DNA from: Fabrea salina
Lineage: Eukaryota; Ciliophora; Heterotrichea; Heterotrichida; Fabreidae
Assembly: GCA_022984795.1 (NCBI GenBank)
Contig: JALIHJ010000048.1
Span: 62,001 to 126,000 of the forward strand
Reading direction: 5' to 3'
DNA: 64,000 bases
The notes under the pieces are model-generated. The model saw only the letters and a program-made list of their open reading frames with translations. It was not told where the DNA came from and ran no database searches. A program made the position numbers and the translations under genes. The stretch's first letter is position 1. Every line of letters starts with the position of its first letter. Below are positions 10,001 to 57,215 of this stretch, one piece after another.

Positions 10001-12650
10001 GATTCTGAAAAGGGATTCAATGGACTTAGCTGCTTACATCCACTACTTAGTTTGGGCACCTATTGTAGAGATGAAACTTAGTTCTATTTCAGCAGGAGTG
10101 TTTTGTTGGGAGTGGGTGATGGCAGCAGTTCCTGCTACAAAGGAGATTCTTTTTGAGGAGCTTTGGCTAGCAAGTAGGTACCTGTTCCAGCATGGAGGGC
10201 TGACTAAAGGAAGTTCTCCTTTTAGTCCACAGCCTAAAAGAAACTACATTTCTCCTCTGCTCATACACCCCTACACTCAAGAAACCAAAGTTTCTGACCT
10301 GCGTTTGTCAAGAATCAACATAGAAGAACTCTTGGAAGTTGAGTTGGCTTTAGTTGAGTTTTTGGACAGGCAGTTCTACCCTTGTCTCGTCAGAACAGAC
10401 ACTGCTATCATCTACATTGCCAGGATACTGCTGGACCTGCTTAGTTTAGACCCTAACAATGAAGGACTTAAAATGGAAACGGGCATAGAACTCATGCTTA
10501 AGGTGCTTGACTTGTGTCTAAAAGTTAGCAACGACTTAAAGAACTCTTTTGATGTGGACAAGTCGGAACTCCAAATAAGAGCTATGAAGTTTTTCCTAGA
10601 AAGTTTTTCTTCAAAACTGTTTTGGTGCCAAGTCTCCCACCCTCTAAGGCTAAACAAACTCTACGAAGCCTTTATCTCTTGCTACAACACCTTACTAGAA
10701 ACAGAAGCTTACCCTCAGCAAGCTGCAGATTACTTTCCTTACTTCGCTTCAGTACCTTTTAGGTTTTACCTTCCTAAGTACCTGAACAAATACAGGCCTT
10801 CTTACGAGTTTATGAAAGCACCTAACATTATGGAGCACAGCCAAGTAGACAGACTTAAGTTCGAAACTATAAAAGAGCTAACACTTATCTTCATTGAACA
10901 CGAGTACGAAAGAATAGTTGTGTGGAACTGCCCCACCGAGTTAAACAGACTCAAACACATGCCAGTCAAAGCGTAAGATTTACTTAGACCCAAACCTAGT
11001 TCGCCCACACTCCTTATGCAACAAGCCTGGAGAATCAACCACTCCTTAGCTAAAAGGTTCCTCAGAGCTATGAAGGGGAAACTCAAACCTAAACTCCATG
11101 AAGAAATGCTTTCGCTTTACTACGAAAACGAAGAACACGTCCACCACTTAGACTTTGCTTTAAGAGAAGCCGAGCAGTACCCCAAGATGCTTGAGCACAT
11201 TTCGAGCAAAAACCCAGCTTTAAGGAGTTACGCCATCAAACACTTTGAAAGGGCCCCTAAAGAAACCCAGTTGTTTTACATGCAACAAATAGTTGAGTGT
11301 GGAGGGCCTAGGGACGACTGGAGTTCTTACAAAAGAATTGAAGGACAAGACGACTCTTGGACTTACCTTATACGTGCAGGGGGTTCTTCAGTTATTATTT
11401 TGAACCAACTCGAGTGGGTGCTCAGAGTGAGTTTGATCAAAAACCAAAACGAAGAAAAAATGTCCATAGCCAAGTTTGTGTACTTCAAACTTTTGGAAGA
11501 AATTAAAAAACAGCCTTTAAAGTGGGAGCAGTTTAGTACTGAGCAAAACTTTTTCAAAAGAATTTCCAAAATATCTGCAGAACTGGTTCCAGGGAGCAGC
11601 GAAAACTCTGCCAAGATCAAACAGGGCTTAGAAGAACTAACAGAAGACGGCTACCAAATTCCCAAAGGAATATACCTTCCCACTGACCCCAACCTTTCTT
11701 TAGTCGGAGTCAAAACAGACAGTGGAGTTCCCTTGCAAAGTGCCAAAAGAACTCCAATACTAGTGGTTTTCTACACCACTCCTAAAGTCGGAGAAGCAGA
11801 AAATAGCCAAATAGAACCAAACGAGTCCATGCCTGTTTCAGATGTTTTGGGCACTCCTTGCATATTTAAAGTCAACGACGACGTTAGAAACGATCAACTG
11901 TGCCTTCAGTTCATAGAACTAATGAAAGAAGTCTTTAAAGAAAGAAACTTACCAATATACCTAAGGCCTTACAAAGTCATCAGCACTATAATTGAAAACA
12001 ACTCGGAAGAACAACTCGGAGGCATAATAGAGTGCATTCCTAACTGCAAGTCCAGAGACGAAATAGGCAAGGAAGGGTCGGCTTCTCTTTACGAGTACTT
12101 TGTTGAGAAGTTTGGAATGGAAAACTCAGAACCCTACGAAAAGGCCAAAAAGAACTTTATAGAGAGTTTGGCAGGCTACGCCATAGCTTCGTACATGCTT
12201 CAAATCAAGGACAGACACAACGGAAACATTCTGATAGACGAGTACGGGCACATAGTGCACATAGACTTTGGGTTCATACTAAGTATAAGTCCTGGGGGCA
12301 ACATGCGGTTTGAAAGGCCTGGGTTCAAGTTAACTAAAGAAATGATTGACGTGATGGGCAAAGACGACTCAGAAGCTTTTGAGTACTTCAAAGAGTTAGT
12401 GATTAAGGGCTACTTTGCAATAAGAGACCACTCAGAGTCTTTTATTTCTTTGATAGCTACTATGCAAGACGCTGGGTTTACTTGCTTCAGAAAAAACGCT
12501 GTGAAGAACTTAGTCAAAAGGTTTTACCAAGAGTGCAGTTTCAGTGTTCTTTTGGAAAAGCTGCACTGGAAGATTTCAAGGGCCAACAACTCTATTTTCA
12601 CTGTGTGGTATGACCGAATTCAGTTGATACAGCAACAAATTGAATACTAA
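7032..12650 (+). CDS. PI4KA: phosphatidylinositol 4-kinase type III alpha (PI4KA)
   Basis: Two exons, 7032-10972 and 10988-12650, give 1867 residues, close to animal PI4KA. The N-terminal 1100 residues are helical scaffold; GVFCWEWVMAAVPA lies before the lipid-kinase unique domain. The C-terminus is a PI3/PI4 kinase domain: GYQIPKGIYLPTDPN, IFKVNDDVRNDQLCLQ, the catalytic loop QIKDRHNGNILI, the metal motif HIDFGFI, and the tail FTVWYDRIQLIQQ. It makes PI4P at the plasma membrane. The stop after PVKA is bridged by a 15-nt intron that restores frame exactly. It begins with no spacer after MSRB. Confidence 0.93.
10973..10987 (+). other. 15-nt intron in PI4KA
   Basis: GTAAGATTTACTTAG. Its removal joins codon GC|A and keeps the frame across an in-frame TAA. 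The A at position 10 is the presumed branch point. Confidence 0.92.
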
Positions 12651-12652
12651 GT

Positions 12653-13087
12653 TTAATTAGAAAGGAAATCTCCAGAGTCTACCTTTTCTTGGAATTCTTG
12701 CTCGCTCATAAACTCACTGTCGCTGTTATAAATAACTAAAACTGAGTCTTCGTCGAAGTACCCTAGAAACTGCTTGTAGGTGTTAATGAAGTCCCCAATC
12801 ATTTCTTTGTCATAGTTAAGTCCGTTGAGAACTACGTACTCGTCTTCACTCATGTTAGAGTAGATTCCTTCTAAAGCCGCAATGTCAGCTTCGATCTCGT
12901 GTGGCTCGACGGGGTAAACTCCGTACTCGTTGATTTCGTCATTAACTATTTGTTTAAGACCGTCAACTTCAGCAATATAAGCTTGCATTTCTGGAGAGGA
13001 AGTGTCTACGTGCTTGAGACCTGGGTCAAGTGGTTCCTGCTTTGCAGCGCACAAACTTAGTAGTATAAGCAAGCTTGTTATTTTCAT
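12653..13087 (-). CDS. small secreted acidic protein, 144 aa
   Basis: The start MKITSLLILLSLCAAKQ is a clear signal peptide with a likely cut after Ala. The rest is very acidic and soluble, with no Cys pairs or known domain, and ends EKVDSGDFLSN. It is probably secretory or cortical-granule cargo; this is inference only. Its stop lies 2 bases from the end of the convergent PI4KA gene. The 217-base region upstream is one of the longest spacers in the window. Confidence 0.65.
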   Translation of the reverse strand: MKITSLLILLSLCAAKQEPLDPGLKHVDTSSPEMQAYIAEVDGLKQIVNDEINEYGVYPVEPHEIEADIAALEGIYSNMSEDEYVVLNGLNYDKEMIGDFINTYKQFLGYFDEDSVLVIYNSDSEFMSEQEFQEKVDSGDFLSN

Positions 13088-13304
13088 ATTTATTCGTTTT
13101 CAACTCTATCATATCAAAATTATATCAAAACTAAAAACAACTACTATTTAAAGAACTCCTAAAACTAGCAGATATTGCTAAAGCACACTGTCCTTTTATA
13201 CCTTTAAAAGGCCAGGGGCTTGGGAGAATGAATTTTAGAAATTACTATTCCTAACTCAGAAGCAACCACAATAAATCCCTGTCAAAAACTACACTTGAAT
13301 ATAA
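13088..13304. promoter_or_regulatory. 217-bp divergent intergenic region
   Basis: This separates the starts of the secreted-protein gene and the HLD kinase. It is AT-rich on both flanks, with a more GC-rich centre around 13200-13230. I see no ORF, tRNA or repeat. It is long for this window and may hold two separate promoters or an unrecognised small RNA. Confidence 0.35.
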
Positions 13305-14309: not shown

Positions 14310-14311
14310 TA

Positions 14312-15928: not shown

Positions 15929-15941
15929 TTTATAATAATTA

Positions 15942-16112: not shown

Positions 16113-16135
16113 ACTATAATTTAAATTCGATAAAA

Positions 16136-17422
16136 ATGGAATTCACCAAACTAGTCAGAGAAAGATATGAAAAGTCTTACTCTAAAACTCCCAAGTTCCA
16201 CGGAGTAGAAATTCTTGTAAGCTTCACCTAGGTAAAAAGCATTCCCAAACTGCACGAACTGAAACTAGTGAGTCTAAAAGGTTCTTACGTAGAATCAGCC
16301 GGAAGACCAGGACTCATATCAGAAATCTGTCCGAACATCCAACAACTCGACATTTCCTACACCAAACTCCAAGACTTCTCCCAAGTGCTTCAAATCTGCA
16401 AAGAACTTCCGCAACTAGAGTTCCTAGACATTTCTGGAGTTCCTTTGACTAAGTCTTCTTTTAAGTTCCACCAACAGCGCTACTCAGTCAAAACCCTAGT
16501 AATGAGTAACCTCCAACTTAACGAAAAAGAACTGAAGGTTGTTAGTGACTGCTTCCCAGAAGTGGAAATGCTTGTTCTGGGAAGTCTCAAAACTAACTTT
16601 ACTTCTGTTTTCGACGAGTGTTTTGTAAATATCAAATCTTTGCATTTGCCACAATCCAATGTAACTAGTCCTGAGGACCTGCTAATGCTTGCAAAGCTTC
16701 CTTTCTTGGAAGAGCTAATTTTGGCTGGAAACGACTTGGAAGCTATTCCTGAACTTGAGGACTCTGATTTTCGCAAACTAAAAGAACTCAACCTTGAGAA
16801 TACTTTAGTGTCCTCACTGCATTGTATCAATAACCTCAACTCACTAGAGTCCTTAAAGCACGTCCGACTCAACAACACTCCTGTGCAAAACCGGTTGAGT
16901 TCCCAGTTCCGCACAATCCTGATATCCTACTTGCCTAAAGTCAGCATACTCAACGGAGGCCACATAGACTCTCACGAAAGAACCACAGCTGAAAGGCAGT
17001 TTTTAAGGGACTTCAGTGACCCAGAAAATCCCTCCCTCCACAAACCTGAAAAACCATTGGTTTCATCAGAGCATTCCTTGAATGCAAAAGTCTTTGAAGT
17101 GGTCATTGGCAAAAGAGGAGTTGTTTACAAGTTTGCAGAGGTGAACTTAGCTCCTCCAAAAGAAGCTATGGTGGTCTTTAGGACCGAAGAAACTGAAGAG
17201 CAGTACTGCGTGCCTTTGAACTGGAAACTCCCTAACTTGAAGAAAATGCTGGAGAAGATTTACGGAATTCCAAGCGAGGAGCAAGAGTTGTGGTATGGGG
17301 ACCACGAAGTCATTTTTGCTTTGGGGTTCCAGTTGCTAGAAAACCCTAAAAAGAAACTCTGGGAACTCAAGTTTAAGGATGAAGACATTGTCCTTGTTAA
17401 AAGGGCTGATAGTAAACTTTGA
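16136..17422 (+). CDS. TBCEL: tubulin-folding cofactor E-like protein (TBCEL)
   Basis: Two exons, 16136-16216 and 16232-17422, give 423 residues; human TBCEL is known to be about 424. The start MEFTKLVRERYEKSYS matches the family. LRRs follow (CPNIQQLDISYTKLQD, LPQLEFLDISGVPL, LPFLEELILAGNDLEAIPE, LESLKHVRLNNTPV). A C-terminal ubiquitin-like domain (EEQYCVPLNWKLPNLKKMLE, LWYGDHEV) ends at a TGA stop. No CAP-Gly domain is present, as in TBCEL rather than TBCE. The protein dissociates tubulin heterodimers. Without the intron the gene has no ATG before the LRRs. Confidence 0.88.
16217..16231 (+). other. 15-nt intron in TBCEL
   Basis: GTAAGCTTCACCTAG. It lies between codon CTT and codon GTA. It carries an in-frame TAG and A at position 10. 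Splicing joins the start codon at 16136 to the LRR frame. Confidence 0.92.
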
Positions 17423-17439
17423 ATAATCTTTGGTTAAAT

Positions 17440-18678: not shown

Positions 18679-18680
18679 TG

Positions 18681-20086: not shown

Positions 20087-21496
20087 TTACTTTTGACTCG
20101 CTAACAGCAAGTTCGAAACAAGGTTTTTGAACTGGTAAAAGTTCATTGAGCAACCCTGTGTAAAAGCAGATTCACCCTTGATGTGGTTTAGTTCAGACTC
20201 AGTTAGGGTTTGGTCTATTGAATCAAAGTAGTACTGCAGATCTTGAGTACTGAGATAACCGTCGTTATCCCAATCAAACAATTCAAAAGCTGTTTTGAAG
20301 TAGGTTTCTTCTGTGAATGTTTGAATATTTTTAATCAAAAACTCTCTAAAGTACACTCTGTCAGTGAGTTTGGTGCTTTTGCACAACCCTATTTGGTGAG
20401 TTTTGGCATACTTTTTAACGTCACTGAATGTGAAGTAACCTTTGTTGCTTTGGTCTAAGGTGGTAAAAGCCTTGATTAAGCTTTTTAGTTCTTTAGTTGG
20501 AATTGCGTTAGTTGCTATTTTTAGTGTTTCTTTGATGAACTTGTTTTGAGTACTGGGATTAAATACTGAACCAAGAATTGCAGGATCAATAGTGAGTGAA
20601 GGACTTGCGAGCCAAGGATGACTTAAAGCTTCTGAGGCTGAAACTCGTTTGGAAGGCTTAGGATGCAGTAACTTGGTCAAGAAGTCTTTACCAGAAGCAC
20701 TGATGTTTTCCAACTTGCCTAAGTCAAAGCCTTCTTTAGTGATTTCTGAAAACAAGTCATCCAAATCTTCAGACTCAAAAGGAAAGCACCCAGTGAGCAA
20801 AAAGTACCCAACCACTCCTAAGGACCAAACGTCGCATTTGTTGGAGTAACTGTCAGAAATAACTTCTGGAGCCATGCAAACTGGAGTTCCTACACGGCCT
20901 TTCATCTTTTCTTTACTTGAAAAGTGTCTGGAAAGCCCGAAGTCTATCACTCTGAGTTCTGAAAGGTCCTCAGAAACCATGATGTTTTCCGGTTTAATGT
21001 CTCTGTGGGCAATTCCGTGTGCGTGCAAGTAGTTCAGAGCTTTTAGTACCCTTGAAAGCACTGAAGCTGCTTCAGCTTCACTTAGTTTTCCTTTAGTTGA
21101 AACAAACTGGCGTAAGTTAACGCCCTTTACCAATTCTGTTACAAAATGGAACAAGTAACCTTCGTCAATGAACTCAATAAATCTTATAACAAATGGGTGG
21201 TCTATTTCCCTTAGAATTGCTAGTTCTTTGTATATGAACTTTTTATGAGGAACTCTTCCCAGAGAAACAGACTTTACAGCTACTTTGTAGCTTTTGGCAC
21301 TGCTTTCATTCTTAGTGAGTCTTACTGCTTCTCTGATAAATGAAAATTTTCCCTCTGCAATTTTATCAGTAACTTTGTAATGCCTATAGAGCTCTGTTTA
21401 TAGTTTACTTTTAGGTTTAAAGGCCTTTGTAACTCTTTGGTTTTTTCTATTCTGGTTAGTGATATGCGGATTATCCTTAGAAACCTTCACACCCAT
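20087..21496 (-). CDS. calcium-dependent protein kinase (CDPK), N-myristoylated type
   Basis: Two exons (21496-21409 and 21393-20087), 464 residues. Exon 1 starts MGVKVSKDN, a myristoylation signal. After the intron comes the glycine loop IAEGKFSFIREA, VAVKS lysine, HRDIKPENIM, VIDFGLSR, APEV and a full C-lobe. The C-terminus has EF-hand pairs; the clearest loop is DWDNDGYLSTQD, and another is degenerate (LDQSNKGYFTFSD). The frame is open only to a TAA at 21398-21400, and the intron supplies the N-lobe start. A second CDPK lies at 44422-45813. CDPKs couple calcium to phosphorylation in alveolates and plants. Confidence 0.88.
21394..21408 (-). other. 15-nt intron in CDPK
   Basis: On the minus strand GTAAACTATAAACAG, A at position 10. 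It splits codon A|AG and links the myristoylated leader (MGVKVSK...) to the kinase N-lobe. Confidence 0.9.
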
Positions 21497-21547
21497 CTTA
21501 GTATTGAATTATACTGTTCTAGAAGGTTCCATTTATTTACACAGAAG

Positions 21548-22711: not shown

Positions 22712-22713
22712 AT

Positions 22714-23271
22714 TTAGTTTATTTGGGTTTTGCAGATTGGACAGTTTGGAGCTTGGTTAAGCCAGCTGTTTATGCAGTTCGCGTGGAAATTATGGAAGCA
22801 AGGAAGGGTTTTGTACTGGTTTTGAAAAGTAATGTCTTCAAGGCATATAGTGCAGTTTTCACTGTAGTCTCTTTCCCAGATGTTTGAGTTTAGTTCTGAA
22901 CGCATAACTGGCTCTATAGCTGGTTCCGCAACTGGCTCTATACGCGGTTCCACAACTGGTTCTGGAATTGGTTGTATTCTTCCAAAGCTCTGAGAATTAA
23001 TAGCAATTCTCAAAAAACTCTCTAGTGGACTTGAGCTAGCGCGGTCGGAAACTCCTCCTACCAGCAAACTTCTAAGTAGTAGTTACTCAAGGTGCCTAGG
23101 AACTTGTATTCTAAAGTTCTGGGGAGAGTGTACGTGGTCTTCAATTTGACTGATAGGAATTACTTGGTTGCACACATCACACACAATGAACTCAGTGCAT
23201 TCTTGAAAGTGCTGCTCAAGGTTGATTACTCGTTGCAAGCAGTAATCACACAGCAGAATTTCTTCATTCAT
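22714..23271 (-). CDS. zinc-finger plus RING-H2 protein, 180 aa
   Basis: Two exons, 23271-23087 and 23071-22714. Exon 1 (MNEEILLCDYCLQRV) has Cys/His pairs CDYC, HFQEC, CDVC and H, like a TRAF-type or C2HC finger. Exon 2 has a repeat of acidic EPxxEP units (PEPVVEPRIEPVAEPAIEPV) and a RING-H2: CTICLEDI, LPCFHNFHANCINSWL, CPIC. It is probably an E3 ubiquitin ligase. Exon 2 alone has no ATG at a plausible place; the intron fixes this. Confidence 0.85.
23072..23086 (-). other. 15-nt intron in RING gene
   Basis: Minus strand GTAACTACTACTTAG, A at position 10. It splits codon GA|A and removes an in-frame TAA and TAG. Confidence 0.92.
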
Positions 23272-26739: not shown

Positions 26740-28491
26740 ATGGCATATCAAACGCTTTATCGAGAACTTGCAATAATCGGACGTGGCAATTTCGGTAAGA
26801 CTTACTTAGGAGCGGCTATCCTCGTAGAACACCTCCAAGAACGAACGAAGTACGTAGCTAAGAAAATAATCTTAGCAGGACTCTCTGAAAAAGAAGTTGA
26901 AGGGGCACACCAAGAAGCACAGTTACTCAGCATGCTGAGCCACCCCAACATAGTTAAGTACAAAGAAAGTTTCTGCCAAGAAGGCCTACTTATCATCATC
27001 ATGGAGTACTGTGAAGTAGGTGATCTTGCCTTCCATGTGCAGCAAAAGAAGAAGAAAGGCGAGTATTTCACTGAAACGGAGATAATGAACTGGTTCGTCC
27101 AGATGTGCTTGGCTCTGAAGCATATTCACGTTGCAGGGATTCTTCACAGAGACATTAAAAGCTCCAATGTTTACTTGACTGGCAACAATACAATCAAGCT
27201 TGGGGATTTTGGAATTTCTAAGATCCTTCAAGGCTCTGAAGCTGCTATGACTGTAGTTGGGACTCCTTACTACATGAGTCCTGAAGTTTGCGAAAACAAA
27301 CCTTACAGTTACAAAAGTGACGCTTGGTCTTTGGGGTGTGTTTTGTATGAACTGTGCACACTGAAGCATGCTTTTACAGCTGACAACTTGTTAGGTTTAG
27401 TTTTCAAGATAGTTACTGACAAAGCTGACCCCATCCCTTCAATTTACTCAAAAGAACTCAGTGACTTGGTTCAGTAACTTCTATCTAGGGCCTTACTTGT
27501 CAAGGACGCTGGGTCTAGACCCTCTGTTTCGCAGATCCTTAAGCACCCCTACTTGATCTCTTACATGCAGAGTTTTGTAGACTCCCAAGGAAACAACCTT
27601 TCCCTAATTAGAACTCTAAGCAACCGCAAGACCGTAGTTAACAATGCAACTCCAGCAGCACCAAATCACAAAGAAACTCCCAAAGAAAGACTTGCTCGCC
27701 AGAAAAGAGAAAAAGCCGAGATGGAAGCTGAAAAGCTCAAACAAGCTACTCGCGAAGCCTTTATAGATAACCAAGTGTAACTTATAGCCAGAAACAAAAT
27801 CAGAAGGCAGGACATGCTTTACTCGTCCCCTTCGCAAAGAGCAGAACACCAAGACTACATGCAAAAAGTCATGTCACCTCCTAAACAAATGAGCGGAAGC
27901 GGAAGCACTATAGCTTCCATAGCCTTCACACACCAAAAAAGCTATGAAAAGAGGTTTTCAGACTCAGTGGTGTCCCAGGACTTCGCCAACTTAACCATGG
28001 AAGAAGAGTACCCAGACGAGTAAGTTCTAGTTAGTTTCGAAGACACGTTTTCTTACTCCCACACCCAAGGGAGCTTCTATGAAGACGATAGACCTATCAG
28101 ATCCCAAGGCAGGTACGACCTGAGTTTCCTCAACGAGGAGTCTTCAGAGCCTGCAGTTCCTAACTGCGAAGAACTCACTAAAGTAGTAGACGTGTACAAG
28201 TACCAACTGGACAACGCAGAAGAGTCCAAAGACGCCACTGACAGCAGTTTTGCTGACTCAGAACCCAGAAACATATTCCAGGACAAAAAGCAACGCCTGT
28301 ACAAAAAGTGCCTGGACTGCATGGGAGAAGGAGTGTTTGAAGAAGTATACCAGTTCTTCAGAAGCCATAGAGAAGCAGGAACCAGTGATGATGTTATTAG
28401 TCAGCAAGCCAAAGCCAGATGGGGCAAGCAAGCTACCACATACTGCTTATTGGTAGAACAGCTTATTTTCTTGGACTATTTCAGTAATTAA
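26740..28491 (+). CDS. NEK: NEK-family protein kinase, four exons
   Basis: Exons 26740-27473, 27489-27776, 27792-28019 and 28035-28491 give 568 residues. The kinase domain is complete: IIGRGNFGKTYLG, VAKKI, HPNIVKYKESF, ILHRDIKSSNVYL, LGDFGISKIL, VGTPYYMSPEV, SDAWSLGCVLYEL, ending KHPYL in exon 2. The LHRDIKSSN loop and GTPYYMSPE are typical of NEKs, which act at cilia and basal bodies and are expanded in ciliates. A basic coiled coil (KERLARQKREKAEMEAEKLK) and a C-terminal helical domain (CLDCMGEGVFEEVYQFF) follow, the latter like the tail of NEK1-type proteins. The TAA shares a base with the TRAPPC13 ATG. Confidence 0.9.
27474..27488 (+). other. 15-nt intron 1 of NEK
   Basis: GTAACTTCTATCTAG. 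Splits codon CA|G and removes an in-frame TAA within the kinase C-lobe (LVQ|ALLVKDAGSRPSV). A at position 10. Confidence 0.93.
27777..27791 (+). other. 15-nt intron 2 of NEK
   Basis: GTAACTTATAGCCAG. Splits codon GT|A. Ends CAG rather than TAG. A at position 10. Confidence 0.9.
28020..28034 (+). other. 15-nt intron 3 of NEK
   Basis: GTAAGTTCTAGTTAG. Splits codon GA|T and links YPDD to FEDTFSY. A at position 10. Confidence 0.92.
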
Positions 28492-44421: not shown

Positions 44422-45813
44422 TTACACATGCTTGTAAAAAACTTCTTTGAATTGCTCAAAGTTCACTGGAAGCTCTAAGTCAGGCACTCCAGACAGGCTT
44501 TGGAGGTCTTCGTAATTCAGAAGGCCGTCGTTGTCTATATCAAAAGACTTAAAAGCTGCCAGAAGTTCCTTGTCTTGAAGCTCTTGCTTATAGTCAAAAG
44601 TAGCTACTACAAACTCGTTGAAGTAGAGGACTCCTTTTTTAGAACCTGTTAGGTTTAACAGAGCACTTTCAACTTCGTTTAGGGAACCAGCTTTTAAGTC
44701 TTGACTTGACACAAAGCCCTTTTTAGACTTGTCTAAAGCATTGAATGCTCTAGTGTACTTCTTAAGCCTAAAAGTAGGCAAATACTTACAAATGGATTTT
44801 TTAGTTTCTTCTATTAAAGCAAAACTCCTTTTACAGCTCACAAGCGACTTCCAAATTTCATAAGGTACTTGGGTGCTCTCTTGGAACTTAGAAATCCAGG
44901 GGTGTTTCAAGGCTTTTTGCACTGAAATTCTCCTAGAAGGACTCACTGTCAGCATTTCAGAAACTAAGTCAATAGCTTCCGGGCTTATTTTTTGGCGTGT
45001 CTGTTTAGAAAAGCTAGGCCTGAAGTTTCTGATTTCATCGAAAAGCATGTCGTGGGAACTAGAGATAAAAGGCCCACTTCCAAATAGCATAAAGTAAGTC
45101 ATTACTCCTAGCGACCAAACGTCGCACTCCTTACTGTAGTTTCTTTTAAGTACTTCAGGAGCTATAAACATAGCAGTGCCTATTTTATGGATCAAGTTTT
45201 CTCCTTTTTTAAAGAACCTTGAAAACCCAAAGTCTATTACTTTCAGATCTGAGTAGTCCTCTTCGTCACAAATGATTACGTTGTCCAGTTTTAAGTCCCT
45301 GTGGACTATGTTGTGCCCGTGCAAGTAGTTCAAAGCTTCTAGAATACTTCTCACTGCATTTGAAGCTTGCAACTCGTTTAGTGGGCCGCTTTTAGCCAGT
45401 ATTTCTGATAGTGGTCTTCCTTCGCAATACTCAGTAACTATGTGCACACTGCAACCATCATAAAACCCTTCCAGGAGTTTTAAGACTCTGGGATGGTTAA
45501 TGCACTTTAGCATTCCTAGCTCCTTTACACTGTCCTCAGTCTCATGGATTTTTCTGAATTTCAAAGTGCTTTTAATTGCAACTTTAGGTGCTTTTTCTAG
45601 GTCTAGAGCTTGGTCGTTCCTTTCAGAGTTGCTTAGCCTGTAAGCTTCCCTTACTACACCAAATTTCCCACTTCCGACCTGTTTACAAATTCTATAGTAC
45701 TTCAGTATTTCTAATTGAAACTTACTTCTGGACCCAGTTATGCACCAGCTAGTTGTGCTTGAAAGGCTATCCTTTCTAAGGTCTTTTCTTCCTTTGGCTA
45801 CACAAACACCCAT
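44422..45813 (-). CDS. calcium-dependent protein kinase (CDPK), second copy
   Basis: 463 residues. MGVCVAKG predicts myristoylation and palmitoylation. Kinase motifs: VGSGKFGVVREAY, VAIKS, IVHRDLKLDNVIIC, VIDFGFSRF, IGTAMFIAPEV, CDVWSLGVMTYFM. A junction helix and four EF-hand positions follow, but only the last is canonical (DIDNDGLLNYED); ALDKSKKGFVSSQD is degenerate. Compared with the CDPK at 20087-21496, the layout is the same but sequences are well diverged, so this is not a recent tandem copy. No intron is needed. Confidence 0.9.
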   Translation of the reverse strand: MGVCVAKGRKDLRKDSLSSTTSWCITGSRSKFQLEILKYYRICKQVGSGKFGVVREAYRLSNSERNDQALDLEKAPKVAIKSTLKFRKIHETEDSVKELGMLKCINHPRVLKLLEGFYDGCSVHIVTEYCEGRPLSEILAKSGPLNELQASNAVRSILEALNYLHGHNIVHRDLKLDNVIICDEEDYSDLKVIDFGFSRFFKKGENLIHKIGTAMFIAPEVLKRNYSKECDVWSLGVMTYFMLFGSGPFISSSHDMLFDEIRNFRPSFSKQTRQKISPEAIDLVSEMLTVSPSRRISVQKALKHPWISKFQESTQVPYEIWKSLVSCKRSFALIEETKKSICKYLPTFRLKKYTRAFNALDKSKKGFVSSQDLKAGSLNEVESALLNLTGSKKGVLYFNEFVVATFDYKQELQDKELLAAFKSFDIDNDGLLNYEDLQSLSGVPDLELPVNFEQFKEVFYKHV

Positions 45814-45870
45814 TTAACAATGTAAGCCATTCTTATGTATTATTCAGAAAACATATAGATTTACCTTTAA

Positions 45871-46662: not shown

Positions 46663-49600
46663 TTAATTGTTGTTTTTCCCAAACACAAAAGACTCTAGCC
46701 TGTCTATTTGCGAGTGAATTCCTTTCAAGTTTTCTCTGCTTCTAAGGACTTTGTTGATCTCATGTGACTGCCTTTCAAACAAAACCATCAATAACCTACA
46801 AGCCCCAAATATCCCTACTAAAGACCCCACTAAAGTACTTAAGCTCACCAGTACAGCTTCTTTTTGAGTTCTTGTAGTGATAAGTCCAGAGTTGCTTCTT
46901 TCAATGTTAATTTCAACGTTTAAGTCAGACTCCACACTTAACCTGAATAAAGATTACTCTTCAAGTTTATACTGCGAGCCTTCAATTGGAACTTCTAGTG
47001 CTGAAAGGTGGTAGCCTGTTTCTTCGTAGTCCAAGTCTTGGAATATCTAAGTAAAACCTACGGAAGGAATTAAGTTCACAAAGAACTGAGTAGGTGAGTT
47101 TCCAATGTACACTTTTTGAGGGTCAGCTATTATAGTTTGAAGCACTAAACTGGGCTCATCAGGGATCGAAGAAGTAGAAGTCATGTTCAGTTGTATTGCA
47201 GAAGCATACGCAAACAGCTCGTAAACACTTAAGCTGATTTTGCTTCCAGTGATTGTTCTGCAGTTACTGCAAGTAAAGTTTATGGAGCATCCTTTAGTCT
47301 CAAACACTTCACAAGTAGTTTTTAAGTCCCCTATTATAAAGTCGTAACTAAAACTTATGCTGGGGTGGCACTGTTGGTCCAGTACGCAACTTGCTCCGTA
47401 GTTGTAAAGTTTAAGGTTAATTGCAAAGTCGGCTTTTATATCACTATTTTGCTTTTCAAGAACTACATAAGGCACCAGAGTTTTAGTTTCTTGAGTGTTG
47501 TTCAACCACAAAGCTATTACTGATTCCGTAAGTATAAACACTGAAATCAGCACAAATACTAGTGAAAAGTACCCTCCTAGGAAAGTCTTTTTAAAGACCA
47601 TGGGTTTGTCTGTAGTGTAGTTATGAAAAGACCTGTAAAAGTCAAACTTCTGAATGACTCCTCTAGCTTTTCTAACTCCCAAAAACAACACCAAGCACGA
47701 AAGTCCTAGAGAAATAAAAAAGACTCTGGTGTTTGAACTCAAACTTTGGTACTTTGTGTTTGAGTCAGATAAAAATCCAGGTTGGAAGGTTTGGTAGTTT
47801 TCTTGAACAATTGTTTCGTTGGGCTTTGATGAACCTGGGTAACAAGAATTTGGTCCTGAACACTGTAGGTAGTTAAAACTTCTTTTCTTAGGACAGTAGT
47901 ATCCTTGAGGACAGGGCTTGCACTGGTACTTAGTAGTAGCTCCTTTGTAAGGGTTGTAGGATCCTTCTGGGCAAGGCTTGCAGCTTTTAAGGCCAAACTC
48001 ATCGCTAAAAGTTCCTCGAGGGCATTCTATGCACTGATTGGTGCTTTGGTAAGACCCAGGGCTGCACTTAACTGCTTGGTCTGTTCCGTTGAAGTCTATT
48101 TTCATAAACACGTTGCTTGGAGTGTACTCTCTGATGGCGTAGCCTGAAATAGAACCCCCTCCTTTGATGTAAAAGTAGTTTTTATAGTAAAGAGAAGCTG
48201 CTCCAAAACTAACGTACTCCAAACCTCTGTAGTCAGTGTACTCGCCTGACTCCAAGTCTACCGAGTAAAAAGTATTTGCAGCTTCTAAGTCCCAAACAGT
48301 TCCTCCAGCCACAAAGAGTTTATTCTCTAGCTTGAAAATGCTAGCCTTTGCCCTGCTTCTTTCAAGGCTGTAAATCTTGTCAAGTACTTTGTGCCAAGTT
48401 AAAGTGTTCAAGTCAAAGTAGTGCACGTGCTGCAGAGGCATGCTGCTAGTAGTTTTTCCGTACATAACGTAAAACCTAGAGGTAAGGTAGTCCATGTAGC
48501 AAGTGTGCCCACTCAATGGCCCAGGACCTTTTAAGCTGTTTTTACTAAGCAACTCATATTCTCCTTTGCCCAAATCAAGTTTCCAGAGATCACTGGAGAG
48601 CCCAGACTGGGTAGTTCCTCCATACAAGTAAACTTTGTTTTTAATCATAGCTGCACAAGCGTTTTTTCTAGGAGCGGGAACTGAGTCACTATTAATTTCA
48701 ATGCTTTTCCAAGTTCCTGAAAAGGCATTGTAAACCTTAGCATCACTTAAAAGGCCTACTTGGTTTTGGCCTCCCCAAATAACCATAATGTCAGAGTAAG
48801 CAGCACAGGCGTGACCCATTCTTCTCCCTATGAGTTGTCCTTCTATCTCAGTCCAGGTGTCTGAGCTTTCTTCATACTTCCAAAAGTCTCCTAGGATCTC
48901 TTTGTTGTTTACTCCTCCAAAGACGTAAAAGTAGCCGTTGATCATGACCATTGAGTGTTCTGCTCGACTTAAAGGGCCAAAGTAGTCGTCTGATACTATT
49001 TCGTACTCAAGTGGGTACTTACTTAGGTCAAAAGCTACCAAAGAGTTCCTTAAACTTTCAAAGGAATACCCTCCAAACATGTAGAACTTATCCCCTGCAC
49101 AGGAGTATCCATAAGTAGACCTCAGCAGTTTAGAGTAGTCATTTTCCTTGTTAACAGCTACAGTTTCCCACTTGTAGCTAGGATCGCTAAGGTTTACTCT
49201 TTCAAGGGAGTCAATGTTTACGTTTGCTTTGTTGGACCATCCATAAATGATGTACAAGTAGTCCTCATAAACGCAGGACCCATGAAGGTGTCTGTGGGTG
49301 TAAGTAGAACTACTAGTTAAGTTTTCCCACTTCTGAATAGTTAAGTCGTACCTGTAAAAGTCCGAAGGAAAAGGGTGGTTGGTGACCAAGTCTTCGCCAC
49401 CCGTTAAGTAAAGGGATCCTTCGTAGTAGTTCAAAGAAGGAGACTTCCTTCCAGTGGGGACTTCTCCTTGCCTGGGCAGCTTTTTCCAAACCCAGTTGTC
49501 CAAATCCAGTCTATGTAAGAATTACGCAAAAAGTTCATTCTGGCACTTTGGCGAAGTGTGTCCTCCAAAAACAAAAAAGTAGTTGGTCTCGTTAAATTGC

Positions 49601-50040
49601 GCCTGAAAATAAGAAAATCTGTACGCAGGACAGGGAATACTTCCAGTAGGGTTAACTTCGTACCACTAAGTATAGTTTACTCTTCTTCCTTCTATGCTAA
49701 AGCACCAAATGTCTTGAAGGTCACCCATACTGCCTAATCCACCAAACACACAAAGGTTATCGTTGATCACAAAACTGCCTGAGTTCAGACGCGGCTCTGG
49801 ACTTAATGAAGTATGGGGGTGTATGTGGTCCCATCTGCCCAAACTAGTTTTGTACTCCCAAATTTCTTTGAATGACTCTTCAGAACCCCCTCCAAACACA
49901 AACAAAGAACCAGTAGACGCCACGTAGTTCATTTGGCAGTCAGACCTTATTGAAGGAGGAACTCCAGAGGGAGGCAAATAGTCTAACTGGTAACACAAAC
50001 CCAAACCAGCAAAAATACCTATGAGTAGTTTAAAAGGCAT
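46663..50040 (-). CDS. secreted/membrane kelch-repeat protein with cysteine-rich stalk and transmembrane segments
   Basis: Five exons joined by four 15-nt introns give 1105 residues. The start MPFKLLIGIFAGLGLCYQ is a signal peptide. Kelch repeats follow through exons 1-3 (FVFGGGSEESFKEIWEYK, FFVFGGHTSPKCQNELFALD, YVFGGVNNKEILGDFWKYEE, YLYGGTTQSGLSSDLWKLDL). A Cys-rich stretch like GCC2/GCC3 repeats (CSPGSYQSTNQCIECPRGTF, CKPCPEGSYNP, CKPCPQGYYCPKKR) leads to one or more membrane helices (FFISLGLSCLVLFLGV, GGYFSLVFVLISVFILT). A beta-rich ectodomain and a last helix (VSLSTLVGSLVGIFGACRLL) end the protein. Ciliates carry such large membrane proteins; ligand unknown. Without introns it would be called as three genes. 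Confidence 0.85.
46943..46957 (-). other. 15-nt intron 4 of kelch gene
   Basis: GTAATCTTTATTCAG on the minus strand; splits codon GA|G and removes an in-frame TAA. The last exon has no ATG of its own at its N-end. Confidence 0.9.
47047..47061 (-). other. 15-nt intron 3 of kelch gene
   Basis: GTAGGTTTTACTTAG on the minus strand, containing the in-frame TAG at its end; falls between codons TCC and ATA. The only intron of the twelve that starts GTAG rather than GTAA. Confidence 0.9.
49511..49525 (-). other. 15-nt intron 2 of kelch gene
   Basis: GTAATTCTTACATAG on the minus strand; splits codon GC|A and rejoins the kelch blade LFALDLDNWVW. Confidence 0.92.
49666..49680 (-). other. 15-nt intron 1 of kelch gene
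   Basis: GTAAACTATACTTAG on the minus strand; falls between codons AGA and TGG (EGRR|WYEVNP). Removes an in-frame TAG. Confidence 0.92.
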
Positions 50041-50071
50041 ATTTCTATATTGAATTTTCACTTACCTATAA

Positions 50072-51975: not shown

Positions 51976-51994
51976 TTGTAAGTGCTTATAATAT

Positions 51995-52165
51995 ATGGAA
52001 AACCAAAAAAAGCACACAGAACAGCCTAAACAAAAGAAAAAGGTAGTACCAGTGCATTCAGCCGCCAAAAAAAGCAGAAGAGGTCTTCAGCCTGGACAAA
52101 CAGAAAAAATCAACCAAAGAAGAAGTTCTGCCAGAAGCAGGTCTGCTTCCCCAGAATCTCCTTAA
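51995..52165 (+). CDS. small basic protein, 56 aa
   Basis: MENQKKHTEQPKQKKKVV at the N-end, then SAAKKSRRGLQPGQ and a Ser/Arg-rich end (RRSSARSRSASPESP). Highly basic, probably disordered and nucleic-acid-binding. It begins after TTATAATAT, 19 bases from the divergent carrier start, and ends 23 bases before the WWE gene. Position and start context support it, homology does not. Confidence 0.5.
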   Translation: MENQKKHTEQPKQKKKVVPVHSAAKKSRRGLQPGQTEKINQRRSSARSRSASPESP

Positions 52166-52188
52166 CATTGGTTTATAGATAATTATAA

Positions 52189-53979
52189 ATGTCAGGTAAT
52201 CCAAATCTTCCCTCGGGGATGACTCCTGCTGAGTACATCAAATCAATATCAATCAGCCAAAGTTCAGGAAATTTAGGACAAGCTCCTAATCCTTCTGGAG
52301 GCAGTGGTGGAATGTTTGGACAAACTCAAACCCAAGCTTCCGAAATGACTCCTGCAGAGTATGTTAGATCAATATCAAGAAATTTGGGACAATCCCAAAA
52401 CGCCCAAGCTTCTATTTCTTCTGTAAGTAGTTCTGGGTCGATTGAGATTCCTATCAACCCTTATCAAAGACAGTTTAACCAACAAGTACCGAGTAACACC
52501 CACACGCCTCAGGGCCCACAGTTTCCTAATATCCAGGCCCCTCAAGGGCCCTCAATAGGAAACCCTTCACAGGCAGTCTACCCAGAAATAAAATTTCCAG
52601 CAAACAGGTTTCCAGGATCTCAGTACAATAGTTCTACTTTATCTGCCAACGATGTTAATCTAGATATGAATCCTAATCCAAGTGCTGCTTTTCAACCTAA
52701 AACTAGCGGGTTTCCACAACAACCCCCGCAGCCTTTCCAACAGACTCCTAACTTTCAAGTGCCACCAATAAGTCAACCTCCAGCTCCAAGTATTCGGCCA
52801 AACCCTCCACAGCCTCCTAACACCCAAGTGCCAGCAATAAATCAACCTCCTGCACAGCATAAATTTCAGGTGCCAGCAAATCATCCCCTTTCAACTCCAA
52901 CTATTCCAGAAAACCCTCCACAGCCTAACTTTCAAGTGCTACCAATAAATCAGCCTCCTCTAGCTCGAAGTATTCGGCCAAACCCTCCACAACCGCCTAA
53001 CTTTCCACAACCGCCTAACTTTCAACAGCCTCCTAACTTTCAACAGCCTCCTAACTTTCCACAACCGCCTAACTTTCAACAGCCTCCTAGCTTTCAACAG
53101 CCTCCTAACTTTCAACAACCTCCTAACTTTCAACAACCTCCTCAGGTACCACCAATAGGCCAACCCCCTCCAAGTATCCGGGCAAACCCACCTAAACAAG
53201 TGCCCGTAGTTCCAAACTTAACAAGCCCCAGCAGTACTCCTCAACAAAGTATTAACAAAATCAGCCAAATGCCCAAACGGGGAGAATTGAAAGAAACCAG
53301 AGTCAACTGCAATAAAAGCACTGCCCAAGAAATCAAATCTCGAAAAGCAGACCAAAGCATCAAAAACAACCACGGTATAAAAACAATAACTTTTGAATCA
53401 AATAATTCGGTTTTTATACTAAAAGGAGAAAACCAACAAAACCTGGACCAAGCTAAAAAAGACTTAGAAAAAAAGATTGAAGAAATAGAGTCACGAAAAG
53501 ACGCTATGTGGGCTTGGCTCAATGACGACGGGTCTTTTGTACCTTACAATGCACAAAATGAAAGGGAAATGGAACAAGCTTACCAAAGAGGCCAAAAAGA
53601 CTGCCCCATCAGTATTAATGGAGTTAACTACAGAATAGAGTTCAAAGACCCTCCTCCCCACAAACAAGTTTTTCCAGGTTCCAAGATCACTAGAACCGTG
53701 AGACGCCTCACTCAAGAAGACCAAGACAAGGTACATACTATACAACCTGGGGATGTTATTTGGTACTGGAGAGACGACGATGGAAAGTTCAAGCCCTACA
53801 CTGCAGAGGCTTCAAGACAGATTGAAGAAGGGTTCCAGTACGGAGTGCCAAAAGTACTTGTGCAAGGTGATAACATCAAAGCTTACTTAATAGACTTTGG
53901 AAACAGGAAAAACGACATGTGCCAGTTCAACGAAGTAACTCAGTTCGAAAGACCTGTCAAAAGGGGTTCTCCTGACTAA
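52189..53979 (+). CDS. proline-rich protein with two C-terminal WWE domains
   Basis: 596 residues. The N-end carries a duplicated MTPAEY(I/V)(K/R)SIS motif (residues 11-20 and about 50-59). A long Pro/Gln/Asn-rich region follows with QPPNFQ repeats, then a KH-like short domain (HGIKTITFESNNSVFILKG ... KKDLEKKIEEIESRK). Two WWE domains end it: MWAWLNDDGSFVPYNAQNER at about 440-490 and VIWYWRDDDGKFKPYTAEAS with FGNRKNDMCQFNE at about 524-590. WWE domains bind iso-ADP-ribose of poly(ADP-ribose) chains, so it may be a PAR-reading condensate scaffold. No PARP or HECT catalytic domain is present. Confidence 0.85.
   Translation: MSGNPNLPSGMTPAEYIKSISISQSSGNLGQAPNPSGGSGGMFGQTQTQASEMTPAEYVRSISRNLGQSQNAQASISSVSSSGSIEIPINPYQRQFNQQVPSNTHTPQGPQFPNIQAPQGPSIGNPSQAVYPEIKFPANRFPGSQYNSSTLSANDVNLDMNPNPSAAFQPKTSGFPQQPPQPFQQTPNFQVPPISQPPAPSIRPNPPQPPNTQVPAINQPPAQHKFQVPANHPLSTPTIPENPPQPNFQVLPINQPPLARSIRPNPPQPPNFPQPPNFQQPPNFQQPPNFPQPPNFQQPPSFQQPPNFQQPPNFQQPPQVPPIGQPPPSIRANPPKQVPVVPNLTSPSSTPQQSINKISQMPKRGELKETRVNCNKSTAQEIKSRKADQSIKNNHGIKTITFESNNSVFILKGENQQNLDQAKKDLEKKIEEIESRKDAMWAWLNDDGSFVPYNAQNEREMEQAYQRGQKDCPISINGVNYRIEFKDPPPHKQVFPGSKITRTVRRLTQEDQDKVHTIQPGDVIWYWRDDDGKFKPYTAEASRQIEEGFQYGVPKVLVQGDNIKAYLIDFGNRKNDMCQFNEVTQFERPVKRGSPD
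52984..53148 (+). repeat. 18-nt tandem coding repeat (QPPNFQ/P)
   Basis: About nine copies of a unit like CAACAGCCTCCTAACTTT, encoding QQPPNF or PQPPNF. Some copies read AGC (Ser) or CCA (Pro). Imperfect, with synonymous variation CCG/CCT. Confidence 0.9.
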
Positions 53980-53993
53980 TTAGCATAATTAAT

Positions 53994-54353
53994 ATGGCCT
54001 CTAAAGACGAATTTCTAGGCGCGTATTTCAGGCTTTTCTATCGTTATGAAGCTTTGAAGCTGAGCAACGGCCAAGCAGAGTCTAGGTTTTCAGAACTATA
54101 CAAAGAACAAAAAAGGAACTTTAATTATTGTTATTGCTCTGGATTCCTAGCTATGTTTTTGTTCAGGAAAAAACTGTTTGTTAGTGAAATTCCCATGCGA
54201 ACCAAATTGTTTAGGGTACTTCTGAGTCTGTCAATAATACAACTGGGTAGCCAAAAACTCTGCAACAACGAAGAACTAGAACAACTAAGCGAAGAACTAG
54301 GATACAAGTATAAAGACCAGATTTCAACTTTGCGTTTTTCAATAGGTCGTTAA
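53994..54353 (+). CDS. hypothetical protein, 119 aa
   Basis: Not recognised. Helical, with a moderately hydrophobic stretch (YCYCSGFLAMFLFRKKLFV) and a second one (LFRVLLSLSIIQLG), so it may be membrane-linked. Starts 14 bases after the WWE gene, MASKDEF, and its TAA overlaps the convergent 46-residue gene. Confidence 0.55.
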   Translation: MASKDEFLGAYFRLFYRYEALKLSNGQAESRFSELYKEQKRNFNYCYCSGFLAMFLFRKKLFVSEIPMRTKLFRVLLSLSIIQLGSQKLCNNEELEQLSEELGYKYKDQISTLRFSIGR

Positions 54354-54490
54354 GCTTTATATTTGTTATAAAGAGCATAGCCAATGATTCCTAAGCCTAT
54401 AGCCGGAAAGATAACTAAGCACCAGGGCACTTGTTGGTTTTGTTTGGAGTAAGGACAGTTGTTGACTGGAGCCGGCTTACGTTCTTCCAT
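54350..54490 (-). CDS. micro membrane protein, 46 aa
   Basis: Short gene starting MEERKPAPVNNCPYS. It has one transmembrane helix, WCLVIFPAIGLGIIGYAL, and a basic tail YNKYKA: a tail-anchored or single-pass protein. A clean ATG, a fully open frame, and a helix of correct length argue for a real gene. Its stop overlaps that of the plus-strand gene by 3 bases (TTAA). Confidence 0.6.
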   Translation of the reverse strand: MEERKPAPVNNCPYSKQNQQVPWCLVIFPAIGLGIIGYALYNKYKA

Positions 54491-54512
54491 TTATACAGTT
54501 ATTACAGTTAGC

Positions 54513-54686
54513 TCAACCGGGCTTTTTGAGCGCTTCAAGAAAGCACCTTAAAAATTCTTTGTCCGGCTTCTGAGAACTAGTTTCTTGTGTTGCTTCAAAA
54601 GCCTTGATAAAACAGCCCAGGAATTCGCTAGTTGCCTTGGAAGAACTCAGTTCAGTGTGCCATTCTTCAAGTTCCAAGCCTTCCAT
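54513..54686 (-). CDS. small protein with duplicated FL-CF motif, 57 aa
   Basis: MEGLELEEWHTELSSSKA at the start, then two similar segments, SEFLGCFIKAFEATQ and KEFLRCFLEALKKPG, before a TGA stop. A paired amphipathic helix is likely; function unknown. The frame extends to 54749, but that overlaps the divergent DDX19 start, so the ATG at 54686 is chosen. Confidence 0.45.
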   Translation of the reverse strand: MEGLELEEWHTELSSSKATSEFLGCFIKAFEATQETSSQKPDKEFLRCFLEALKKPG

Positions 54687-54725
54687 TATTGGCCCCCGTA
54701 GCAATCTAGCTTTGACTGAAAATAA

Positions 54726-55961
54726 ATGGTAAGCAAAAGTTCTGATCAAGAGGTCATTACACTTACGACCTCAGAAGGGGAAACAGTATATGCTTCTTCT
54801 AGGACCTGGGAAGAACTTATGATTCCCGAAAGCATCGAGCGCAATTTAATGCTGAAAGGCTGGACACACCCCACCTTGATCCAAGGCACAGCCATTCCTA
54901 TTATAAACAACGGCAAAAACATCATAGCCCAGTCCAAAAACGGCACTGGCAAAACAGGGACTTTCGTGATAGGGTCTTTGTCGCGAGTTAACCCCGAAAT
55001 CAAAGCCCTGCAAGTAATCTGTCTTTCCCACACAAGAGAACTCAACCAGCAAAACTTTGCTGTGTTCCAAGAAATAGCTAACAACATAGGAGTAGACGTG
55101 TGCCTCGTGCAAAAAGGTGACGTCAACTTGCCCCACTGCCAAGTGCTTTGTGGGACTCACGGGACTATTAAACGAGTTATTAGGGGAAACGACCTAAGCC
55201 ACGTCAAGTGCATCGTTTACGACGAAGCTGACTTTATGTTTTCTCACGAAGACAACCTCAAAACCATCTCAGCCATTAGGAGTCAGATGCCTAGTGCCCA
55301 ACAACTTCTGTTCTCAGCTACCTTTCCCGCGCAAGTTTGGCAGTTCGTGAACCAAAACATCCAGAACCCTTTTCAAATCAAAATTGAAAAGCAAGAAGAC
55401 CTTACTCTGGACAACGTAGGACAGTACGTGATTCAGTGTCGGAAGCAAGAGAAGTTCGAAGTAGTTCACGAAATTATTAGGAAGTCCGACCTGAGGTGCT
55501 GCATTATTTTTATTAACACAAAGAAGTACTTAGACTCTCTGTTCCAGTTCCTCACTCAAAAAGGAAACAAAGTGTTTATAGTAGCCAGTGGAACTGTTTC
55601 AGAAGAAGACAGAGACAAAATCTTAGACAAAGTCAGAAAAGGAGAAGTCAACGTGCTTCTCGCTACAAACTTGCTAAGTAGAGGCATTGACCTCAGAAAC
55701 GTCAACTTGGTAATTAACTTAGACCCACCTACCGGGCCTAACAAAGAACCCGACCCTGTGACTTACCTGCACAGAGTAGGCAGAACTGGACGTTACGGCC
55801 GAGGAGGCATTGCTATTAACATTGTGTCAGACCCTATGAGCCAACAAGTCTTTGCCCAAATACAGGAGCACTACACCCAGAGGTTCGAAGCCATAACTGT
55901 AGATGATCTCTCAGAAAAACTCCAACAGGTCAATAAGGACTATGAAGTTTCAGAAATTTAA
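54726..55961 (+). CDS. DDX19: DEAD-box helicase DDX19/Dbp5-like
   Basis: 411 residues with all motifs: Q motif (GWTHPTLIQ), Walker A AQSKNGTGKTG, YDEADFMF (DEAD), LFSATF (SAT), LLATNLLSRGIDL, HRVGRTGRYGRGG. The arginine-rich C-lobe, the insertion LDPPTGPNKEPDPVTYLHR and the ending IQEHYTQRFEAITVDDLSEK are typical of Dbp5/DDX19, which releases mRNA-protein complexes at the cytoplasmic face of the nuclear pore. The short N-terminal extension of animal DDX19 is reduced. Starts 39 bases from the divergent 57-residue gene. Confidence 0.88.
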   Translation: MVSKSSDQEVITLTTSEGETVYASSRTWEELMIPESIERNLMLKGWTHPTLIQGTAIPIINNGKNIIAQSKNGTGKTGTFVIGSLSRVNPEIKALQVICLSHTRELNQQNFAVFQEIANNIGVDVCLVQKGDVNLPHCQVLCGTHGTIKRVIRGNDLSHVKCIVYDEADFMFSHEDNLKTISAIRSQMPSAQQLLFSATFPAQVWQFVNQNIQNPFQIKIEKQEDLTLDNVGQYVIQCRKQEKFEVVHEIIRKSDLRCCIIFINTKKYLDSLFQFLTQKGNKVFIVASGTVSEEDRDKILDKVRKGEVNVLLATNLLSRGIDLRNVNLVINLDPPTGPNKEPDPVTYLHRVGRTGRYGRGGIAINIVSDPMSQQVFAQIQEHYTQRFEAITVDDLSEKLQQVNKDYEVSEI

Positions 55962-55970
55962 TTACTTCTT

Positions 55971-57215
55971 TTAAAGTGTGTGGATCTTCTCTATTGTCAG
56001 GATCTTGTAGAAGCTGAAGCCTATTGAAAGCGCCAAAGCAAGCAGTCCAAGTAGCACCCAAAAGAACCTCCAGTCTTGGGATACTTGTTGCTTTATGAGT
56101 TCTGTGTGGCCTTCTGAGTAGGTCACTGCGTTTGCTAGTTTCTTAGTTGTTGAGTAAGACTTTTTGTACTCGTTGTCTACGGCGTTGTAAAGGTTCTTAA
56201 GTATTTCTCTTCTGTCTATGTAGTCATGCATAGACTCTACTTTAGTTCCAAGTCCTTGCAAAGTAGTTTGTATAGTCTGTACATGTTGGTTACTGCTTTT
56301 CTCGAACTCATCGGTAAAACTTAAGTCAGCTAGGTTTTCTTTTATGAGTTGAAGTCTTTTTTCTAGGTTCTTCAGTTGAGTCCTTAAGTCAGAGATTTCG
56401 GACTCTAAGCCTTTGAGGTTGGGGTCACTGCTGGCAGCCATAAAGCTGTCGAAGAACTCCATGAGTTCTTGTTTTTGGAGTCTGAGTTCTTCTTCGAACT
56501 CCATCTGCATTATCTGGAGTTCAAATTGGGTTTCAATTTCAGGTTTGATTTCTGTAAAGGAAACTTGAGTGATGTCTACAGCTCCGTTGACTCCTTCTCC
56601 AGTGACTCCGCTTACTCCGAAAAACATTCCTTGGCAGTCTGCAACTGGCATCTACTTATGAGTTACTTCAAAACACAACTGGGCTTCGTTGTCTTTGAGC
56701 CAAGTGTAGACTTTAAGTGCTTCTTTTCTGAATTCCAACTTCAGACTGAACTCAAAGCCCCTCATCGGTACAGTGCAAGTATAGTTAGTTTGCACAGATT
56801 CCAAACTAAGTTTGGCTTTTTCAAAGTAAGAGTAGCCCCAGATACTTTGCTTTAGAGTGTCAACAACAATTCCATTCCCTTTAAAAGTAGGCTTGACTCC
56901 GTAAACAGGTCCTAAGGAGTCCCTAACCTGGCTGCTAGAAGTCCACACAGTAAACCCAGAAAAGTCGCCTTTGTTGCTTCCAGAGATTCTAGTCCTCAAG
57001 TAAATATCTAAGTCCGAAGCAGGCAAAATCGAATTGCTAATTATAGCTCCTTGTTTATTAGATAGAGGAGGAAGCAGACGTATGTACCTTTTGAGAGGAG
57101 CAGAAGAACCTATAACTTCGTACTTAGAACCATGCTCAGGCAAAAAAGGACTGTTGAAAGACAGCTCAGCTATCTCAGCCTCCACACAAACTAGCAACAG
57201 CAGTAAGTATACCAT
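55971..57215 (-). CDS. L-type (leguminous) lectin, ERGIC-53/VIP36-like cargo receptor
   Basis: Two exons (57215-56667, 56651-55971), 409 residues. [14 protein letters not shown] is a signal peptide. The lectin domain follows: [58 protein letters not shown], then across the intron [19 protein letters not shown] long coiled coil ([19 protein letters not shown]) leads to one TM helix ([20 protein letters not shown]) and a short tail ([11 protein letters not shown]). Lectins of this type ferry high-mannose glycoproteins from ER to Golgi. The cytosolic tail lacks the FF exit motif of ERGIC-53. Confidence 0.87.
56652..56666 (-). other. 15-nt intron in lectin gene
   Basis: GTAACTCATAAGTAG on the minus strand; falls between codon GAA and the ATG of the following frame, so without it the gene would be called as two. 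A at position 10. Confidence 0.92.

Follow-up and report, generated by a model that had tools for sequence, protein, structure and literature searches.

Fifteen-nucleotide, probably spliceosomal introns with a fixed adenine in genes of the heterotrich ciliate Fabrea salina

In the ciliate Fabrea salina, a 64,000-nucleotide (nt) stretch of contig JALIHJ010000048.1 (positions 62,001 to 126,000; hereafter “the window”, numbered from its first letter) carries genes that are broken by 15-nt pieces beginning with GT and ending with AG. An earlier note on this DNA claimed that twelve such pieces, each with a stop that breaks its frame, are introns of seven genes, and decoding reproduced every one of these counts. 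The note also expected that further introns, free of stops, lie hidden in open frames; two more were found in the window, at 26795-26809 and 45711-45725.

The window is part of a contig that we designate C46, in a genome of 18.33 Mb and 103 contigs (GC ~0.42). Genes were decoded in the window together with a part of another contig (C1:1-200000), a sample of 264 kb or 1.4% of the genome. A motif-free Viterbi gene finder relied on codon usage only and admitted any GT..AG interval of 10–45 nt at equal cost, the GT..AG borders being imposed. A second, motif-aware decode favors 15-nt introns; its gene borders were used for the sense/antisense and codon-shuffle counts, and the motif-free length tally does not rest on them. 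Two 15-nt calls that scored weakly and have no A at position 10 (A10) are omitted from our tallies of 33 introns in this sample: 62894-62908 in the window (motif score 1.8) and another in C1 (5.9).

Several genes contain introns that were called by both decodes. On the forward strand, a phosphatidylinositol kinase-like gene (7032..12650; the name was read from the sequence, with no search) has one intron, GTAAGATTTACTTAG (10973..10987; phase 2, in-frame TAA), and its frame is open only without this piece. Farther along the same strand, a gene that is leucine-rich-repeat-like by eye (16136-17422) holds GTAAGCTTCACCTAG (16217..16231; phase 0, in-frame TAG). The reverse strand carries a gene that looks RING-finger-like by eye (22714-23271), with GTAACTACTACTTAG (23072..23086; phase 2, in-frame TAA), and another that resembles a kelch-like membrane protein by eye (46663-50040). 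The latter is interrupted by GTAATCTTTATTCAG (46943..46957) and GTAATTCTTACATAG (49511..49525), both in phase 2 with an in-frame TAA, and by GTAGGTTTTACTTAG (47047..47061) and GTAAACTATACTTAG (49666..49680), both in phase 0 with an in-frame TAG. Also on the reverse strand, a gene for what appears by eye to be a lectin-like secretory protein (55971-57215) has GTAACTCATAAGTAG (56652..56666; phase 0, in-frame TAG). Decoded genes in the window are separated by a median gap of 24 bases.

Homologues could be brought to bear on a NEK1-like protein kinase gene (26740..28491, forward strand) that has four 15-nt introns. The first 290 residues of its spliced protein match Pkinase with 221 bits. Judged by this one protein, the closest named relatives are heterotrichs: the two best homologues listed are from Blepharisma stoltei (59% identity over 100%). 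Both decodes called GTAACTTCTATCTAG (27474..27488), GTAACTTATAGCCAG (27777..27791) and GTAAGTTCTAGTTAG (28020..28034), all in phase 2 with an in-frame TAA. The remaining intron, GTAAGACTTACTTAG (26795..26809), is in phase 1, contains no stop and reads as five extra residues. Comparison of such residues with homologues had been put forward as a check, and here the five residues are absent from NEK1 and from six aligned homologues. An alignment of NEK1 (4apc) to the unspliced kinase has a 5-residue gap at this site. Among eight homologues aligned, out of 120 listed, six show a gap of exactly five there, including the two Blepharisma stoltei proteins, and two are without the whole region. Gaps of exactly five were also seen in 8/8 of them at 27474-27488 and in 8/8 at 27777-27791, two of these being poorly aligned at the latter site. 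Thus, three of the four introns are backed by exact five-residue gaps; at 28020-28034, the homologues are too variable.

The other hidden intron, GTAAGTTTCAATTAG (45711..45725, reverse strand; phase 1, stop-free), was called by the motif-aware decode; in its CDPK-like gene (44422-45813), it immediately precedes the part for the kinase domain. A search for CDPK-like sequences gave 92 matches overall, and eight loci were examined. Four other loci (L033, L034, L035 and L037, of which L034 and L035 are near-identical sequences) carry a 15-nt motif whose phase and distance to the kinase domain are those of this intron. An in-frame TAA occurs at this site in L033 and L037 and in neither L034 nor L035. 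L037 is another gene of the window (20087-21496, reverse strand); its phase-1 intron, GTAAACTATAAACAG (21394..21408), has the TAA at positions 9-11 and was likewise called by the motif-aware decode. No such motif was found at the site in L036, L038 and L039, three of the eight loci examined. The shared position and phase support the predicted intron at 45711-45725. Eight of the CDPK-like matches lie within ~32 kb on one contig (C92:247797-279388), an arrangement that resembles a tandem array.

The length of these pieces emerged from the motif-free decode, which picked the 15-nt piece at 11 of the 12 reported introns. With a penalty of -9, 25 of its 59 introns measured 15 nt; lengths of 11, 16 and 19 nt were seen three times each, and other lengths at most twice. 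At a penalty of -12, 19 of 43 introns had this length and any other length occurred three times or fewer; the corresponding figures at -7 were 26 of 83 and five or fewer. All 25 of the motif-free 15-nt introns begin with GTA and have A10 (the background for A10 in the window is 188 of the 628 GT-N11-AG 15-mers), 23 begin with GTAA, and 18 end in TAG. For the twelve introns of the earlier note, an invariant A10 had been claimed, along with eleven GTAA starts and nine TAG ends. A10 was indeed present in 12/12, the start is GTAA in all except the intron at 47047 (GTAG), and the three ends other than TAG are CAG. Over the larger sample, the base preceding A10 is T in 30/33 introns, and the base following it is C in 18/33.

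The motif also follows the direction of the genes. Within decoded genes of the 264 kb, the pattern GTAA-N4-YA-NN-YAG, which spans 15 nt, occurs 28 times in the sense and four times in the antisense orientation, vs. 0–3 sense matches for its counterpart at every other length in the range 12–25 nt; codon shuffling gives an expectation of ~2.3 for the intron motif. Dropping the Y before the A weakens the contrast: there are then 29 sense matches at 15 nt vs. 14 at 13 nt, 12 at 19 nt and 10 at 25 nt. With the A placed at 5-9, 11 or 12 instead, 1–7 sense matches remain for each position, compared with the 29 at position 10. This orientation bears on the proposal that the pieces are germline-limited DNA, i.e. 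internal eliminated sequences (IESs) that were left in the assembly and are removed at the DNA level. Ciliates do remove short IESs, many of which lie within genes in Paramecium (according to the available part of PMC9942806), and an IES inside a gene with a length divisible by three (3n) would look similar. However, the motif is asymmetric and runs with the genes, and the pieces begin with GTA, end mostly in YAG and match the U1 of this genome; we regard an IES origin as very improbable.

Across the whole genome, GTAAGNNNNANNTAG has 732 matches vs. 45 for the reversed pattern, and GTAANNNNNANNYAG has 2873 vs. 819. The reversed pattern understates chance, because the version of GTAANNNNNANNYAG without A10 also favors the forward direction (2901 vs. 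1806). For a 15-nt form that ends in TACTTAG, GTAANNNNTACTTAG, the counts are 488 and 8. Could sequencing errors or pseudogenes account for the interrupted frames? Single stops do interrupt otherwise good genes, as errors or decay would have it, but a motif that recurs hundreds of times with a single length peak, and the strong domain match of the NEK gene, leave this explanation with next to no chance.

Stop-codon readthrough or an altered code, with no splicing, has in its favor that ciliates often reassign stops and that 12 of the 14 window introns contain an in-frame TAA or TAG. Against it, the 78 long open reading frames (ORFs) of the decode sample end in TAA (59), TAG (17) and TGA (2), from which we judge the genetic code to be standard; moreover, the NEK homologues are without the neighboring residues too, not the stop alone. 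We find this explanation scarcely credible.

Two small nuclear RNAs (snRNAs) of the splicing machinery, U1 and U2, are conserved in this genome: U2 is full length (154.7 bits) with GUAGUA intact, and U1 (81 bits) retains ACUUACCUG. Because both of these elements are intact, splice-site recognition is probably standard. The pieces themselves, their fixed length and fixed A, the sense bias, the homologues without the extra residues and the conserved U1 and U2 form the basis of our principal conclusion: with a probability of roughly 0.96, the pieces are ordinary spliceosomal introns of U2 type in a heterotrich ciliate, as short as introns of this group are known to be. We infer from the sequences that the pieces are removed from RNA by splicing. 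To our knowledge, 15 bases is the shortest class of spliceosomal intron. Exons end in A before 20 of the 33 introns and in G before only 3, though U1 retains a C that is able to pair with G.

How might so short an intron be recognized? Given its position and invariance, A10 is most likely the branch point, as in the published work on Stentor. The 5′ end, GUAA(G), would be recognized by U1, and branching at A10 would form a 10-nt lariat loop and leave a tail of 5 nt whose last bases are usually YAG. Pairing of U1 with intron positions 1-6 would overlap the pairing of U2 with positions of about 5-11; therefore, the two probably bind in turn. The earlier reading, in which donor, putative branch A and acceptor are packed without slack in heterotrich introns, is in our judgment the best explanation.

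Some observations weigh against the intron assignment. At 21394, the motif-free decode picked 36 nt from the same GT, where the motif-aware decode picked 15 nt; GT..AG pairs of other lengths could thus mend some of the frames. At the hidden NEK intron the Pfam scores are mixed: Pkinase rises from 190.3 bits unspliced to 195.8 bits spliced, while PK_Tyr_Ser-Thr falls from 135.5 to 130.1 bits. The kinase obtains good Pfam scores even unspliced, so that domain scores alone would overlook this intron.

The sequence of the introns dictates which of them are conspicuous. An intron of the form GTAA..TAG brings a stop in phase 0 (TAG) and in phase 2 (TAA). In phase 1 no stop is automatic, and such introns can therefore go unseen as five-residue insertions. 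This rule matters for annotation, as stop-free phase-1 introns escape simple gene finders. Are phase-1 introns nevertheless enriched in stops, as selection through nonsense-mediated decay would predict? In the decode sample, 27 strict-motif introns comprise six in phase 0, 15 in phase 2 and six in phase 1, and one more strict-motif match was not among the decoded introns. Stops are present in three of the six phase-1 introns, a small sample in which stop-bearing introns are easier to find. Two further phase-1 introns from the motif-aware decode match the motif less well, and each contains a stop.

Fifteen-nt introns with A10 are already known biology of heterotrichs. The Stentor coeruleus genome described by Slabodnick et al. 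in 2017 (Curr Biol) is said to contain spliceosomal introns of 15-16 nt, and a Fabrea salina genome paper reportedly appeared in Mol Biol Evol in 2022. The earlier note had stated that heterotrichs are known for such introns, and those described here match the introns published for Stentor and Blepharisma. In the available part of PMC9505925, 92.81% of Stentor introns are 15 nt and 7.19% are 16 nt, with A10 in 90.90% of all. Stentor coeruleus and Fabrea salina share the 15-nt length, GT..AG borders, A10, a standard code, a last exon base that is usually not G, and conserved U1 (ACUUACCU) and U2 (GUAGUA) elements. They differ in that the commonest Stentor intron is GUAAUUUUUAUAUAG, whereas the 3′ end here favors TACTTAG, and in that the 7.19% of 16-nt introns contrasts with a background level here for TACTTAG-ending introns. 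Blepharisma stoltei, too, has mostly 15 and 16 bp introns and a compact macronuclear genome in the part of PMC9942806 at hand, and its two NEK homologues are without the residues of the hidden intron. According to the same source, it reads UGA as tryptophan; here, in contrast, TGA ends two of the 78 long ORFs. Loxodes magnus, from the sister group of heterotrichs, likewise has very short introns, but with a mode of 17 bp, a mean of 19.3 bp, a negligible share below 16 bp and a depletion of 3n lengths (PMC11441545, available part), whereas the 15 nt seen here is 3n; the summary of heterotrich introns in that text describes the same kind of intron as ours. In Paramecium and other ciliates, introns are also short and a 3n length matters for detecting retention, yet most of their short 3n introns are depleted and stop-enriched, as far as the available part of PMC5014332 goes. 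In Fabrea salina, by contrast, the whole intron class is 3n and some members are stop-free.

The 16-nt class of Stentor has no clear counterpart among the TACTTAG-ending introns of this genome. The pattern GTAAN{0,20}TACTTAG has 1086 matches genome-wide, which include the 488 at 15 nt given above, and 15 nt is the length at 44 of 100 places among the matches listed. The 16-nt form, GTAANNNNNTACTTAG, has 28 matches, compared with 30.0 on average for each of 19 other lengths, a baseline that is itself inflated by repeats near contig ends. Among TACTTAG-ending introns, a minor class of 16 nt (A at position 11) is therefore at background, with one sense and five antisense matches in the 264 kb. 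Because the count of 28 does not exceed the mean, these introns appear to come in one length; from counting noise, we estimate that a 16-nt class would be roughly less than 2% of the 15-nt class. The loose 16-nt pattern, GTAANNNNNNANNYAG, counts against a single length: its 1424 genome-wide matches (922 reversed) exceed a crude expectation of ~1185 derived from the 2901 15-mers that lack A10. Within genes of the 264 kb, this pattern has three sense and nine antisense matches. On balance, we lean slightly toward the view that this lineage tightened the heterotrich intron to a single length, lost or nearly lost the 16-nt class, uses its spliceosome as a fixed 15-nt ruler and tolerates stop-free phase-1 introns. 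Heterotrich membership does not depend on the 16-nt class, because it is a minor one. How U1, U2 and the acceptor fit on 15 nt could be tested more cleanly in a genome with a single intron length than in Stentor.

The repeats in question are common to contig ends and probably subtelomeric (C1:878-1155, C1:375187-375493, C7:1022-1048 and C8:1029-1434); they raise the numbers of GTAAN{0,20}TACTTAG matches at 19 and 27 nt.

The missing glycine plug of Cwc25 and the Isy1 protein have been conjectured to be adaptations to tiny introns (PMC9505925, available part). Homologues of both with altered N-termini are present in this genome (L030:877-1638 and L031:1471-2124). Its Cwc25 starts with MGLAFLNKKSW, without the GGG plug. 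Among 120 of 173 relatives, 26 start with MG[GS]GDLN, 66 with M[GS]LxFL and 28 otherwise, and two of the latter have GGG in a different context. The named proteins with the GGG plug are vertebrate among the matches listed, and the LxFL form is also found in Amorphochlora (P0111), a rhizarian. Because this form occurs outside heterotrichs, absence of the plug is not confined to lineages with tiny introns, and we rejected its loss as an adaptation peculiar to them; the comparison weakens one published argument for such adaptation. Isy1 of this genome starts with MSAEKNTTQGEEK, where Euplotes (P0195) has MARNEEK. In 120 of 1714 Isy1 matches, 54 N-termini are like MARNxEK, 10 have MARNxEK internally and 56 are different; these 56 include at least four fragments and some that are one residue off, and many are not close to the protein of this genome.

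Codon usage was tallied over the same 264 kb, where TGA hardly ever serves as a stop (2/78 long ORFs). T-ending codons are preferred for several amino acids, e.g. Ala, Pro and Thr. Queuosine tRNAs serve four amino acids, Asp, Asn, His and Tyr, and for each of these, codons ending in AC far outnumber those ending in AT: GAC 2046 vs. GAT 317, AAC 2362 vs. AAT 420, CAC 941 vs. CAT 158, and TAC 1651 vs. TAT 264.

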